Positions 5,950-63,935 of a stretch of 64,000 bases of DNA are shown one piece after another. Below the pieces are notes generated by a model that did no database searches, was not told the DNA's origin, and saw only the letters and a program-made list of their open reading frames with translations. The position numbers and the translations under genes are program-made. The DNA is from Thiohalobacter sp. (GTDB lineage: Bacteria > Pseudomonadota > Gammaproteobacteria > Thiohalobacterales > Thiohalobacteraceae). Positions within the stretch are counted from its first letter, which is position 1, and each line of letters opens with the position of its first letter. The stretch spans positions 1 through 64,000 of the forward strand of contig NZ_JALTON010000058.1 in the NCBI RefSeq assembly GCF_027000115.1, in the 5' to 3' direction.

Positions 5950-8745
<2,796 letters not shown>

Positions 8746-22871: not shown

Positions 22872-23047
22872 GCACCCTTGTCTGTCGGGAAAGCCGGGCA
22901 CGAGGACCACGCGCAGAATGCGGTCCCGAGTCCGGTGACACGGAAAGAAACACCGGCAGCCGGTTGGAACCACCGACACGCGAAGGACAGGGAGGAACAA
23001 GAAGCTCCGCGTGCCGCCCAAGGGAACGAGGGACGATTGGGGGCCCG

Positions 23048-24133
<1,086 letters not shown>

Positions 24134-54996: not shown

Positions 54997-55689
54997 TCAG
55001 CGGCGGCGGGCCAGCCCCACCAGGCCGAGCAGCCCGGAGCCGAACAGCCAGACCGCGGCCGGGACCGGGACCGCGGTGGTCGGGGCGCTGGTGTAGAAGG
55101 CACCGGCCAGATTGAGCACCACCGGGTTGCTGCCGCCCTCGACCAGACGCAACTGCATGTCGCCGGCCAGCGCCGCCCCCGCGGCGATCCCGAAATCGGA
55201 CAGATCGACCAGCGCAATGCCCAGGTACTGGTTGTTCAGCGTACTGCCGTTCCAGATCATGCCGTCGAGCACGCACTGGGTGGACGGGCTGCCGCAGCCG
55301 AACAGGGTCGCCGGTGCCAGGCTGGCAGTGGTGCCGTTGATGGTGAGATCGATGGTGTTGCCGGTCTGGTCCCAGGTGAACAGGAAGGCGAGATCGGCGC
55401 CACTGCCGTTGTAGGCGCTGTTGTCGCTGAAGCCGAGGCCCAGCGTCACGTCGTCGTACCCCGGATAGGGCGCGGTGGCATAGAAGGTGGTTGCGTCGAT
55501 GTCGGTCACCGGGCCCGGCGTGCTGGACGGATGGTCGTAGCCGCTGCCGTCGTACATGCCGCTGCCCGTGAAGGAGGTCACAGTATCGACGAAGGCATTG
55601 TCGTCGAAAGTATAGGACCCCAGGGTAACGGCGGCCTGCGCCCCCGTCGTCGCGATCGCCAGGATCGCACTCAGCCAGATCGGTTTCAT
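54997..55689 (-). CDS. Exported protein with VPxPA/PEP-CTERM-type sorting tail
   Basis: A 230-residue protein. Residues 1-19 are a signal peptide (MKPIWLSAILAIATTGAQA). The C-terminal 24 residues begin VPVPAAVWLFGSGLLGLVG and end ARRR: a sorting motif, a membrane helix and a basic tail, the architecture recognised by exosortase (VPLPA/PEP-CTERM class). The middle is rich in Gly, Ser, Thr, Asp and Asn with few charges, as in surface or extracellular-matrix proteins. A single Cys pair lies in FGCGSPSTQC. No exosortase gene is in the window. It follows the proline-rich gene by 84 bases. Confidence 0.87.
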   Translation of the reverse strand: MKPIWLSAILAIATTGAQAAVTLGSYTFDDNAFVDTVTSFTGSGMYDGSGYDHPSSTPGPVTDIDATTFYATAPYPGYDDVTLGLGFSDNSAYNGSGADLAFLFTWDQTGNTIDLTINGTTASLAPATLFGCGSPSTQCVLDGMIWNGSTLNNQYLGIALVDLSDFGIAAGAALAGDMQLRLVEGGSNPVVLNLAGAFYTSAPTTAVPVPAAVWLFGSGLLGLVGLARRR

Positions 55690-55773: not shown

Positions 55774-56205
55774 TTAGAGTGCCGCCCCGGGCGGTGGTGG
55801 TGGCGGCGACGGCGGGCCGTTGCCGATGGGCTGGTTCGGGTCCACCGGCACCACGCCCGGCACTCCGGGCGGCGGTGGCGGGGGCGAAGGCGGCCCGCTG
55901 CCCACCGGCTGGGTGGGATCGACGGGGACCACGCCCGGCACCGAGGGCGGACCCGCAGGCGGCGTACCGCCACCACCGCCCGTGGTCTGGATCTGCGGCG
56001 TGAGCTGCTGGCTGTCCTCCGGCCGCAGGTTCACGCCCTGGACGCTCAGTTGCGGCGTCGGGTCGGGCAGGCCACCGGCGGCGGGATTCAGCGTCTCCCA
56101 GCGCCCCCAGCTCAGCACCGAGTCCTGGTCCGGTTGCGTGGCGGCGGATGCCGGCGCGGCGCAGACCGCCGCAAGCAGTAGGCATCCCGAAATTGTGTAT
56201 TTCAT
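55774..56205 (-). CDS. Exported proline-rich repeat protein
   Basis: A 143-residue protein, ATG at 56205 (MKYTISGCLLLAAVCAAPASA), with a signal peptide; the Cys at residue 8 is too early for a standard lipobox. The C-terminal half has two tandem units, each PGVVPVDPxQPxGxGPPS followed by six prolines. Tight sequence identity between the units indicates recent duplication. No domain is recognised. It leads the pair with the PEP-CTERM-type protein and has a sigma-54-like promoter upstream, so the two may share expression and location outside the cell. Confidence 0.72.
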   Translation of the reverse strand: MKYTISGCLLLAAVCAAPASAATQPDQDSVLSWGRWETLNPAAGGLPDPTPQLSVQGVNLRPEDSQQLTPQIQTTGGGGGTPPAGPPSVPGVVPVDPTQPVGSGPPSPPPPPPGVPGVVPVDPNQPIGNGPPSPPPPPPGAAL

Positions 56206-59787: not shown

Positions 59788-61077
59788 TCAGAAATCCCGG
59801 ATCAGCGCCAAGTTGATCTGGGTGCGGCGATAGTCGTACAGGTCCAGGTTCGAGGCATTCAGGGTGCGCAGCAGGTCGCCGTTGAGGCGCCACTTGTCGA
59901 AGGCACCACCCGCGAACTGGTGACTGAAACCGACCAGCAGGCGGCGGTCGCGGTCGTCGCGGGACTGGCTCGTGAGCACGGGATCGGTGCCGTCGTAGTC
60001 CAGATCCCGCTGCGAGATGCGGGCATGGAGCTGGCCGCGCGGCCAGGCACGCCACTGGCCGGCGAGATAGTATTCCGGCCCGCTGCTGCCGTAGCCGGCC
60101 ACGTCGGCCTCGAAGTCATGATGGCGGGCCCCGAGCTGCACGGCGACGCGACGGTTGTCGTAGTAGTGCGCCAGCATCACGCCCAGCTGCCGGTAGTCGC
60201 CCTCGCGCCCGCTGTCGGCATCGTCGTCGTAGTCGCGGCGGCCGACGCTGCCGTCGAGGGTGAACTCGCCGTCGCGGAACTGCCAGGTGACCAGCGGGTT
60301 GAGCGAGGTGAAGCGCGCCAGCGGGCTGCCGCCCAGTTCGATGTAGTCGAGCTGCAGGTTGAGCGCGGCGCGCCAGTGGCGCAGCACCACCAGCGCGGGG
60401 CCGGTGCCGAGGCTGGCGACGGTGAGATCGAACTCGGATTCGTGGTTGTAGCCGCGGTGATAGGCGCTGAGCTGGGTCTGCCACAGGAACTCGGCGGCGC
60501 GCTCGCCGATCATGTGCCGGCTGCCGGGATTGAAGGTGTGGCTGAGCGCGGCCTGCAGGAACAGGCCGTTGTCGCTGCGCGCGGTATTGCCGGGCGCCAG
60601 ACGGAAGGCCTCGGTGACGATCTCGGAGCTGGGTCCGACATTGACGTTGTTGTCGTACAGGCCACCGAGGCCCAGTTGCGCGCGCCAGCTATGGCGCACT
60701 GCCAGCCGCTCGGCATCGGCCTTGACCTGGGCCAGAAAGGCGAGGATGGACACCCGCACCTGCGGCGGCGTGGCGGGGTCGTCGAGCACCTGCTGCGCCA
60801 GCGCCTGCGCCTCGGCGTAGTTGAGCGCCCGGTAGTAGGCCACGGCCAGTTCCAGCCGCGCGCGATGCAGGCTGGGGTCGCTGGCCAGTATGGTCTGGAA
60901 GGCCTCGATGGCGCTGCGCAGGCGGTCTTCCTGCAGCGCCGTCATGCCGTCGCGAAACAGCCGTTCCAGTTCGTTGGCATCCCTGTCGGCTGCCCGGGCA
61001 AGGGGCGAAACCAGTACCGCGAGCAGGGCTGCCACGCGCAGCCAGCCTCCTCTCCCTGATGCGTTCATGTTGCCCAC
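59788..61077 (-). CDS. TPR/beta-barrel outer-membrane protein
   Basis: A 429-residue protein with a signal peptide (MNASGRGGWLRVAALLAVLVSPLARA after a short MGN). Residues 35-130 form TPR-like helical repeats (ELERLFRDGMTALQEDRLRSAIE, ARLELAVAYYRALNYAEAQAL). The rest alternates aromatic and polar residues and ends DYRRTQINLALIRDF, a terminal Phe typical of outer-membrane barrels. The organisation resembles the Slam/DUF560 family of surface lipoprotein assembly modulators, but similarity may only be architectural. It diverges from the lapG-like gene, which fits a shared surface role. Confidence 0.75.
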   Translation of the reverse strand: MGNMNASGRGGWLRVAALLAVLVSPLARAADRDANELERLFRDGMTALQEDRLRSAIEAFQTILASDPSLHRARLELAVAYYRALNYAEAQALAQQVLDDPATPPQVRVSILAFLAQVKADAERLAVRHSWRAQLGLGGLYDNNVNVGPSSEIVTEAFRLAPGNTARSDNGLFLQAALSHTFNPGSRHMIGERAAEFLWQTQLSAYHRGYNHESEFDLTVASLGTGPALVVLRHWRAALNLQLDYIELGGSPLARFTSLNPLVTWQFRDGEFTLDGSVGRRDYDDDADSGREGDYRQLGVMLAHYYDNRRVAVQLGARHHDFEADVAGYGSSGPEYYLAGQWRAWPRGQLHARISQRDLDYDGTDPVLTSQSRDDRDRRLLVGFSHQFAGGAFDKWRLNGDLLRTLNASNLDLYDYRRTQINLALIRDF

Positions 61078-61231: not shown

Positions 61232-61864
61232 ATGCCCCGATTCGCCGTCATTGTCCTGCTGCTCGCCCTGCTGCCCACTGGAGCAGGCGCGCAGGCGGCG
61301 GAACTGTTCGGCTACCGGGAGCTGCGCCAGTCCGACATCAGCCCCTTCACCCAGTGGCTCTCCGTGCTGGAGCGCCACGTCACCGAGGATGTGCCGGAGG
61401 CGGACTGCTCGGAGCGCCGCTTCAACCGCTGCCACCTGCGGCAGTGGCGTGCTTTCCTGGATGGCTTGCGCGGCCGGCCGCTGACCGAACAGCTTCAGGC
61501 GGTCAACGCCTACGCCAACCGCAAGCCCTACGTGCTCGACATCGACAACTACGGCATCCCCGACTACTGGGCGGTGGCGCGCGAATTTCTCTACAACGGC
61601 GGGGACTGCGAAGACTACGCCATTACCAAGCTGTTCTCGCTGCTGTGGCTGGGGGTGGCGCCGGAACGCATGCGGCTGGTGGTGCTGCAGGATACCAACC
61701 TGCGCATCCCGCACGCCGTGCTGGCGGTATTCACCGACGACGGCCGGACGCTGATCCTCGACAACCAGATCCAGGCGGTGGTGGAGGATCGCAGCATCGT
61801 CCACTATGTGCCCGTGTACTCGATCAACCAGCAGGCGTGGTGGATCCACACCCCGCGTTCCTGA
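61232..61864 (+). CDS. lapG: LapG-like transglutaminase-type cysteine protease
   Basis: A periplasmic bacterial transglutaminase-like cysteine protease of 210 residues with a signal peptide (cleavage near AQAA, residue 23). The catalytic triad is visible: Cys in YNGGDCEDYA, His in RIPHAVLAVF and Asp in LILDNQ. In Pseudomonas, LapG cleaves a surface adhesin unless held by LapD when cyclic di-GMP is high. Here no LapD (GGDEF-EAL) and no large adhesin is adjacent. The next gene, 19 bases on, is a membrane HD-GYP protein that may take the LapD role. Confidence 0.9.
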   Translation: MPRFAVIVLLLALLPTGAGAQAAELFGYRELRQSDISPFTQWLSVLERHVTEDVPEADCSERRFNRCHLRQWRAFLDGLRGRPLTEQLQAVNAYANRKPYVLDIDNYGIPDYWAVAREFLYNGGDCEDYAITKLFSLLWLGVAPERMRLVVLQDTNLRIPHAVLAVFTDDGRTLILDNQIQAVVEDRSIVHYVPVYSINQQAWWIHTPRS

Positions 61865-61883
61865 CCCGCAGCAGGTGGCAACC

Positions 61884-63935
61884 GTGAACCGAAACGCCGT
61901 TCGACCCGTCCTGTTCAGCCTGGCCCTGCTGGTCCTGCTGGTGGCACTGGGCATCTGGGGTCTGTTTGCCTACATCCAGCTCGAACAGCGCCGCGACCTG
62001 GCCGACTGGCAGCAGCGGCTGGGCATGCTGGCCGATGATCGCGTCGCCGACATCGAGGCCTGGGTGCAGGCACAGTTTGCACCGCTGGACGAACTGGCGA
62101 ACAACGCTTCCCTGCAGCTCTACGTCTCGCAGCTCGGACTGGCCGGCACGCCCGAGTCCGGCTCGGTGGAACCGGCCCAGCTCGGCTACCTGCGCAACCT
62201 GATCGTCGCCAGCGCCGAGCGCGCGGGCTACCTGGCGCCAATGCCGCAGGTGCCGGCCAACCTGCCGCCGAGCACCCGTACCGGGCTGGCCGTGCTCGAT
62301 GGCCGCGGCAACCTGCGGGTGGCAACGCCCGGCTTTCCCACCCTCGGAGCCCAGGAACAGGCGCTGGTGGAACGGGTACTGGCCGACAACCGGGCCGCCC
62401 TGCAGGCCCTGCCGGTGGCGACCGACGGCAGCCTGCGCGTCGCCTTCGCCGTGCCCGTGCCCGCGGTGCAGGGCCTGGGCACGCCGGACCGTCCGGTGGG
62501 CGTGCTGCTCGGCATCCGCCGCGCCGACACCGAGCTGCTGCCACGCCTGCAACGGAGCAGCCGGCTGGCGAAGGAAACCCGCAGCCTGCTGGTGACGCTG
62601 GAGGACAATCTGGTGGTACTGCTCGGCCCGCTGGCCGACGGCAGCCGGCCCGGCGAACGACGCCTGGCCCTGGACACGCCGGGTGTGGCGGCGACCGAGC
62701 TGATGCGCAAGCCGGGTGGTTTTGGCCTCTACCGCGACCACCATGGCCACGAGGTACTGGCCACCAGCCGGCCGGTGCCCAGCCTGCCGTGGGTGCTGAT
62801 CCAGCAGACCGACGCGGCAGCCGCCCTGCGCGAGTCCCGCGAGCACGCCCGCTTCCTGTTGTCCGTGTTCGGACTGGCGCTGGCGCTGGTCGCCATCGGC
62901 CTGGTGGCGGCCTGGCGGCACGGCAGTTCCATCCGCGCCCAGGCCATGAACGAGGAACTGCGGCGCAAGAGCCAGGCGCTGGAGACCCAGACCCACCTGC
63001 TGCATGCCGTCACCGACAACATCCAGGACTTCATCTGTCTGCTGGACGAGCAGGGCCGGCTGCTGTTCGCCAACCAGGCCCTGGCACGGACACTGGACGT
63101 GAGTCCCCCGGACCTGCGCGGCAAGGACCTGGCCAGCGTGCTGGGCCCGGATACCGCGCGCCGGCTGGAAGACTGGATGCGGTCGCCGCAGGAGGAAGGG
63201 CAGGTCATCGATCTGGACGTCGCCGGCCGCCGCGGCCGCTACCAGTGCGTGGTGCAAGCCCTGCCCGACCAGCCCGACCTGCGTTCAGCGCGGCTGGTGG
63301 TGCTGCATGACGTCACCGAACTGGAAGAGGCGCAACGCAAGCGCGCGCGCCAGCTCACCCAGTTGGTGCAGGCGCTGATGCGCGCCGTGGACAAGTACGA
63401 CCCCTACTCCGCCGACCACTCGGCGCGCACCGCACGCGTGGCCGTGGCCATTGGCAAGGCACTGGAACTGCCGGCGCGCGACCTGCAGACCCTGGAGCTG
63501 GCCGCCAGCCTGGCCAACGTGGGCAAGATCTTCGTGCCCAAGGAGATCCTCACCAAGACCGGACCCCTCACCCCCGAGGAACAGGCCATCTTGCAGCAAC
63601 ACGTGAAGTACTCGCTGGACATCCTGTCCACCATCGAGTTCGACGGGCCGGTGCTGGAAACCATCGCCCAGAAGCAGGAACACCTCGACGGCAGCGGCTA
63701 TCCCAGGGGACTGACCGGGGACCGGATCCTGCTCACCGCGAAGATCCTGGCCGTGGCCAATGCCTTCGTGGCACTGGTCAGCCCGCGTGCCTACCGCGAT
63801 GCCGTGGACGTGGAGACGGCGCTGTCGCGGCTGCTCGAGGAAAGCGGCAGCAAGTACGACCGGCATGTGGTGGCCGCCCTGTTCCATATCGCGGAGAACC
63901 GCCGCGACGAGCTGGACGCGCAGGGGGAAGGCTGA
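61884..63935 (+). CDS. Membrane PAS/HD-GYP protein with lost catalytic residues
   Basis: A 683-residue protein from the GTG at 61884 (VNRNAVRPVLFSLALL), with an AGGTGG site; the upstream frame overlaps lapG. Helix 1 (about 8-28) and helix 2 (about 322-342) bracket a periplasmic sensor domain. Inside the cell a PAS domain (about 370-480) precedes an HD-GYP domain (about 490-665). The HD pair is replaced by Ala544-Asn545 (SLANVGKI) and the double His by Lys597-Gln598 (AQKQEHLDGSGYP), though GYP remains. It is therefore unlikely to cut cyclic di-GMP and may bind it as a receptor controlling the adjacent protease. Confidence 0.88.
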   Translation: MNRNAVRPVLFSLALLVLLVALGIWGLFAYIQLEQRRDLADWQQRLGMLADDRVADIEAWVQAQFAPLDELANNASLQLYVSQLGLAGTPESGSVEPAQLGYLRNLIVASAERAGYLAPMPQVPANLPPSTRTGLAVLDGRGNLRVATPGFPTLGAQEQALVERVLADNRAALQALPVATDGSLRVAFAVPVPAVQGLGTPDRPVGVLLGIRRADTELLPRLQRSSRLAKETRSLLVTLEDNLVVLLGPLADGSRPGERRLALDTPGVAATELMRKPGGFGLYRDHHGHEVLATSRPVPSLPWVLIQQTDAAAALRESREHARFLLSVFGLALALVAIGLVAAWRHGSSIRAQAMNEELRRKSQALETQTHLLHAVTDNIQDFICLLDEQGRLLFANQALARTLDVSPPDLRGKDLASVLGPDTARRLEDWMRSPQEEGQVIDLDVAGRRGRYQCVVQALPDQPDLRSARLVVLHDVTELEEAQRKRARQLTQLVQALMRAVDKYDPYSADHSARTARVAVAIGKALELPARDLQTLELAASLANVGKIFVPKEILTKTGPLTPEEQAILQQHVKYSLDILSTIEFDGPVLETIAQKQEHLDGSGYPRGLTGDRILLTAKILAVANAFVALVSPRAYRDAVDVETALSRLLEESGSKYDRHVVAALFHIAENRRDELDAQGEG

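Follow-up and report, generated by a model that had tools for sequence, protein, structure and literature searches.

The window, i.e., the whole stretch of 64,000 nucleotides analysed here (Thiohalobacter sp., NCBI RefSeq GCF_027000115.1, contig NZ_JALTON010000058.1), carries a gene for a LapG-type periplasmic protease followed by a gene for a membrane receptor with a degenerate HD-GYP domain. The features of this pair are as follows.

61232..61864, + strand: lapG/dvhG-like periplasmic cysteine protease; Peptidase_C93, signal peptide, C126-H161-D177 triad, Ca site D125/E127/D128.
61884..63935, + strand: DvhD-like receptor; transmembrane helix (TM), periplasmic dCache domain, TM, PAS domain, degenerate HD-GYP domain; GTG start.
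63513..63518, + strand: former HD motif, now A544-N545; metal ligands lost.
63672..63677, + strand: former HH motif, now K597-Q598.
63759..63761, + strand: former metal-ligand Asp, now N626 (VAN); same in DvhD and in every scorable family member.

The protease reading frame encodes 210 amino acids with a start resembling a signal peptide; it matches Peptidase_C93 at 63.3 bits (cut-off 27), LapG of L. pneumophila (4FGO) at E 7e-20, and LapG of P. fluorescens (4U65) at E 3e-18. It is the only C93 protease in the genome. The catalytic triad and Ca residues D125 and D128 are kept in 75/75 aligned relatives, and E127 in 74/75, the remaining one being ambiguous. The downstream frame opens at 61806; since alignments with most homologues begin only near residue 27 or further on, the receptor start was set at GTG 61884, 19 bases after the lapG stop. 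Domain search returned PAS (37.8 bits) and HD_5 (151.9 bits) for the receptor, and no LapD_MoxY_N, HAMP, GGDEF, or EAL. The intact HD, HH, and Asp metal ligands expected of an active HD-GYP phosphodiesterase are absent; GYP is retained and two histidine ligands (H512, H573) are still present.

The preliminary description of this DNA had placed a membrane HD-GYP protein 19 bases downstream of a LapG-type protease, with a periplasmic domain between two TM helices, a PAS domain, and an HD-GYP domain in which HD reads AN, HH reads KQ, and GYP is kept. All of these points are confirmed; the further Asp to Asn exchange (N626) went unmentioned there. A separate response-regulator HD-GYP protein (window 22964-24133) has both HD and HH intact and is likely an active phosphodiesterase; together with about 30 GGDEF/EAL matches elsewhere in the genome it reveals a c-di-GMP network.

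Receptor family and conservation of the pair

The best PDB match of the receptor is the PAS/HD-GYP part of DvhD (E 4e-58; profile search 2e-85). DvhD from Desulfovibrio vulgaris is a non-catalytic HD-GYP c-di-GMP receptor that controls the LapG-like DvhG (PMC13090378). Its HD motif is changed to SQ and its HH motif to MN; it binds c-di-GMP without metal, hydrolysis is absent in vitro, and DvhG is under its control in a reconstituted system (PMC13090378). Structures 9RC0 and 9RBZ represent DvhD PAS/HD-GYP and HD-GYP, respectively, with c-di-GMP (PMC13090378). Because structures, binding, lack of hydrolysis, and reconstitution have all been reported, the concept of a dead HD-GYP receptor for LapG is already published, and the earlier statement that no system of this kind had been described does not hold.

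An AlphaFold model of the receptor (built from 28 homologues, mean pLDDT 84) matched 9RC0, 9RBZ, and the periplasmic domain of DvhD, 9RC2 (E 4e-11, target TM 0.79). The DvhD dCache domain gave no match by sequence profile and was found by fold comparison only. An HD-GYP tree (90 domains) joins DvhD with all lapG-linked proteins in one clade (100/98) separate from 15 non-linked proteins; DvhD is on a long branch and the outgroup is small. The window pair belongs to the DvhG/DvhD family. As its receptor groups with DvhD, the independent invention of a LapD-like receptor proposed in the preliminary description is not supported, with the caveat of the same long branch and small outgroup. A catalytically dead HD-GYP receptor in the position of LapD, as put forward there, is supported.

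Canonical c-di-GMP contacts of DvhD are identical in the window receptor at 6/8 positions (K582Q and M646L differ); among the bridging contacts 1/3 are identical (K520Y and R569E differ). Most of the identical contacts occur in non-linked HD-GYPs as well. The differences (2/8 canonical, 2/3 bridging) count against the reading that we prefer below.

A DvhD-like gene is present in 13/114 related genomes, always with a C93 gene. A scan of named genomes gave 78 loci (79 with the window locus added) from Thiohalobacter, Thiogranum, Sulfuricella, Azonexus, Rhodocyclaceae, Desulfobulbaceae, and others, many of them MAGs and mutually related. A C93 gene adjoins the receptor on the same strand in 68 of the 78 loci and divergently in four; of the remaining six, four are cut at a contig edge, so that adjacency holds in 72/74 uncut loci. 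HD is lost in 75/75 scorable loci (mostly AN or CN), HH is intact in none, and Asp is replaced by Asn in 74/74. The pair and its motif losses, which the preliminary description had proposed to survey, do recur, and relatives with an intact catalytic site, which would have spoken otherwise, are absent among the scorable loci. As the pair and the losses are kept in tens of genomes, they are not due to chance.

An accidental position beside lapG, with the HD-GYP protein working as a phosphodiesterase or sensing 3'3'-cGAMP, is highly improbable. DvhD can also hold 3'3'-cGAMP (PMC13090378), and H512 and H573 remain in the window receptor, but none of the scorable relatives has kept HD, the HH pair, or the later Asp, DvhD with comparable losses is inactive in vitro (PMC13090378), and lapG adjacency is nearly universal.

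Distant DvhD-like proteins in L143, L145, L149, L153, and L154 (Alphaproteobacteria/Rickettsiales-labelled and unclassified MAGs) are without even GYP (GGD, GTP, GKP, GQP); lapG is divergent in four of these loci.

Slam-like neighbours and WGxW..PAAG proteins

Upstream of the pair the window holds the following features.

59788..61077, - strand: divergent Slam/T11SS-like outer-membrane protein; N-terminal TPR, likely C-terminal beta-barrel.
55774..56205, - strand: candidate LapG substrate; signal peptide, DSVLSWGRWETLNPAAG, Pro-rich tail (short form, no barrel).
56074..56109, - strand: WGRWETLNPAAG motif; PAAG fits the LapG consensus [T/A/P]AAG.
54997..55689, - strand: PEP-CTERM-like secreted protein adjoining the candidate substrate; family in 18/79 loci.

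Besides lapG and dvhD, the commonest neighbour is a Slam-like TPR-barrel protein, found in 59/79 loci including the window and usually divergent from lapG. TPR_Slam was matched in 29/30 members of this family and SlipAM in 15/30 (E<=0.01). The window protein reaches 28.2 bits for TPR_Slam, under the curated cut-off of 35.2, and has no SlipAM match, which is one of the weakest steps in the substrate and export reading. A Slam-like gene is present in 11/13 DvhD-type vs 1/9 LapD-type genomes; p-values for this co-occurrence are inflated because the genomes are related (10/13 DvhD-type genomes belong to one family).

A second Slam-like TPR-barrel gene of the window genome (G000:C56:23703-25085; L237 8703-10085) adjoins a FecR-domain protein, and a similar pair recurs in relatives. 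Weak LapA-retention matches in family members adjoin such second Slam-like genes; the two neighbours scanned (L237, L239) are FecR-domain proteins.

Secreted proteins of one family, encoded beyond the Slam-like gene, have WGxW, 4-5 amino acids, and then [P/A/T]AAG, matching the published LapG site [T/A/P]AAG, which is cut between the alanines and optimally follows a DP element (PMC13090378). The spacing from W to [P/A/T] is 4 or 5 without exception. The strict WGxW..AAG motif was found in 46/79 loci and in 30/1024 predicted genes (0.05 expected from shuffled sequences); seven long cargos carry near-variants, e.g., PAAA or PAAS, and the strict motif is missing from 17/59 Slam loci, some of which are short contigs. 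In the N-terminal half of the long cargos the invariant columns are S, W, G, W, A, and A of the motif.

Long forms (about 360-480 amino acids) end in a barrel, with TbpB_B_D in 8/19; the barrel matched lactoferrin-binding protein B by profile, and fHbp, TbpB, NHBA, and a haemophore by fold. These four are known or typical Slam cargos (PMC8406197), and a TbpB/fHbp-like barrel is a hallmark of Slam cargo. Short forms (about 100-200 amino acids) have a tail rich in proline, and at several loci a PEP-CTERM protein comes next. The window candidate is of the short, Pro-rich kind; its lack of a TbpB-like barrel is another of the weakest steps in the reading. Between it and the Slam-like gene are 3.6 kb that hold leuA and two further genes, and its scissile AA is about 21 residues past the likely signal-peptide cleavage. 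A frameshifted long cargo was considered and rejected, as the other frames show no barrel. A DNA pattern search of the whole genome for the motif gave 23 matches, four of which have in-frame spacing. One of the four is the window site; among the other three, L196 alone is in an open frame, and that frame is of low complexity and without a signal peptide.

WGxW..PAAG might instead be a signal for Slam recognition or some other process, the pair and the Slam module being merely co-inherited. WGxW is indeed kept more strictly than the final G of the motif, and most PAAG proteins, for which cleavage is predicted from sequence, are missing the DP element. Against this, [P/A/T]AAG equals the measured LapG consensus, and no WGxW..AAG protein was found near Slam-like loci without an adjacent lapG (L237-L239). 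In the LapD-type genome G100, a LapD, a LapG, and a Slam-like protein occur with a 113-amino-acid secreted protein carrying WGHW and ADPSQITEPTAAG, which is a full canonical DP..TAAG site although the WGxW-to-AAG spacing is altered. In G004, a PAAG protein stays beside lapG though the Slam-like gene is elsewhere. We consider the recognition-signal explanation quite unlikely.

LapD, adhesins, and export routes

LapD of at least 600 amino acids was found in 9/114 genomes, all with a C93 gene and none with a DvhD-like protein, and LapD_MoxY_N in none of the other family members searched. The preliminary description had named a canonical LapD elsewhere, partnering this LapG, as a finding that would speak against its proposal; in the window genome no intact one was found, and the sole LapD_MoxY_N match (140 bits) is a truncated N-terminal region on contig C37 (G000:C37:92844-93383; L018 about 7731-8393). 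It shares 49% identity over 180 amino acids with LapD of G032, a genome with a classical LapD/LapG/T1SS/LapA locus (DP..PAAG). On its 3' side lie transposase-like remnants and ccm genes. As a working partner it was rejected: the frame stops after TM2 beside these remnants, and no continuation was found.

The retention-module adhesin that had been looked for elsewhere in the genome was likewise not detected; retention_LapA has no match in the window genome and none above the cut-off in the 13 DvhD-type genomes. The LapG substrate in the window genome is likely of another kind than a LapA-type retention-module adhesin. Contig C46 encodes an RTX protein of about 2850 amino acids with a lipase-like N-terminus (G000:C46:18834-33077; L015/L016), beside an LssB-like ABC transporter and HlyD; two paralogous secreted ORFs of 270-290 amino acids lie between it and the transporter genes.

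The pair could thus be a plain copy of the DvhDG/Lap arrangement, controlling a conventional large T1SS adhesin (the C46 RTX protein, or one missed in a draft assembly of 63 contigs), with the Slam-like and PAAG neighbours there for another reason. The transporter, HlyD, and RTX genes do exist in this genome, and both D. vulgaris DvhG (PMC13090378) and the pair of G066 go with large adhesins; in G066 a DvhD-like protein and LapG occur with a cadherin-repeat protein and HlyD-type/TolC-type genes, and no Slam-like gene was found near the pair. The C46 RTX protein with its T1SS still counts against our preferred reading, in that it was set aside as a LapG substrate only on the missing LapA retention-module match, its lipase-like N-terminus having no evident [TAP]AAG site. 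The absence of retention_LapA matches, the distribution of the Slam-like gene between DvhD-type and LapD-type genomes, and the position of the LapG-site motif in the Slam-linked protein all speak against a conventional adhesin, which we regard as unlikely.

In G090 the full set adjoins, with the Slam-like gene split in two frames. As single genomes show either a DvhD-like receptor with a T1SS-type adhesin or LapD with a Slam-like protein and cargo, receptor and export route appear to be exchangeable; the mixed cases (G100, G066, G004, G090) are single genomes, all pointing the same way.

Proposed control of release and comparison with known systems

Building on the gene content, motif losses, conservation, family membership, and Slam and cargo resemblance observed above, the best reading, and to us a fairly probable one, is that through the DvhG/DvhD-family pair c-di-GMP controls the release of a Slam-linked surface protein by LapG. 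By analogy with DvhD, the HD-GYP domain would bind c-di-GMP and no longer hydrolyse it, and the bound state would pass through the PAS domain, the TM helices, and the dCache domain so that LapG is restrained. Upon a drop in c-di-GMP, LapG would cut between the two alanines of PAAG in the secreted protein. A short N-terminal segment (about 20-45 residues, with the invariant WGxW) would stay periplasmic, like the LapA retention module, and the nearby Slam/T11SS-like protein may help to display the PAAG protein. Being displayed at the surface in this proposal, the protein would be released from the cell by cleavage. The control logic is taken from DvhD, and substrate and export route are proposed from sequence; c-di-GMP binding, lack of hydrolysis, and protease control are known only from D. 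vulgaris, and binding is presumed for the window lineage.

DvhG/DvhD (BfsG/BfsD, DVU1019/DVU1020) of Desulfovibrio (Nitratidesulfovibrio) vulgaris (PMC13090378) likewise combines a BTLCP protease with an adjacent dCache-PAS-HD-GYP receptor that has lost HD and HH and has VAN for VAD; the window receptor matches all three DvhD crystal structures and falls in the same clade. The lost motifs differ (AN/KQ in the window, SQ/MN in DvhD), the window protease has a signal peptide whereas DvhG has a TM linker, and the neighbours are Slam/T11SS-like and PAAG proteins instead of a T1SS and an RTX adhesin. A T1SS adhesin with a retention domain belongs to the complete D. vulgaris system rather than to receptor and protease as such, and retention_LapA has no match in the window genome. 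Lineages beyond D. vulgaris include Pseudomonadota and Desulfobulbaceae.

LapG/LapD of Pseudomonas fluorescens shares the protease family, the proposed logic, and the LapG consensus [T/A/P]AAG, but its LapD (LapD_MoxY_N-HAMP-GGDEF-EAL) is not homologous to the window receptor. In P. aeruginosa, LapG also controls a surface protein not exported by a T1SS, CdrA, which uses a two-partner (type Vb) system and LapD (PMC4694147), whereas the window has a Slam-like protein. With Slam/T11SS systems (PMC8406197, PMC12282271) the loci share a gene for a TPR and outer-membrane barrel protein beside secreted proteins, the long forms having a C-terminal TbpB-like barrel; what differs is the N-terminal WGxW..PAAG segment of the secreted proteins and the presence of lapG and a c-di-GMP receptor gene in the locus.

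New here is the distribution of the receptor, and probably also the pairing of a LapG switch with a Slam-like machine as export route. A search of the open literature turned up no paper that connects LapG with Slam/T11SS; the supplementary neighbourhoods of 78 homologues (PMC13090378) might already show such a link. The range of the DvhD receptor class, so far sulfate reducers, now takes in many sulfur-oxidising and other proteobacteria; the loci also supply a large number of naturally occurring dead HD-GYP receptors to align, and concrete candidate substrates. If the proposed substrate is correct, this would be, within the open literature searched, the first case of a Slam/T11SS-type protein being released under the control of a second messenger, and it would suggest a function for environmental T11SS-like proteins of unknown cargo. 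We give somewhat better than even chances to the broader view that a third export route (Slam/T11SS) has come under LapG control after T1SS and two-partner adhesins, that receptor (LapD or DvhD-like) and export route are exchangeable modules, and that a short WGxW peptide takes over the anchoring from a folded retention module.

Other gene orders occur among the loci. In L088 (2133-12034; Sulfuricella sp. T08) and L148 (2261-12034; a marine MAG), a single Slam-like gene and a single PAAG cargo gene lie between two lapG-dvhD pairs in divergent orientation. In L095, L100, L102, L106, L107, and L117 (mostly Desulfobulbaceae), histidine kinase-like and NtrC-like regulator genes precede lapG-dvhD, and where a Slam-like gene was seen it is on the same strand, further downstream.
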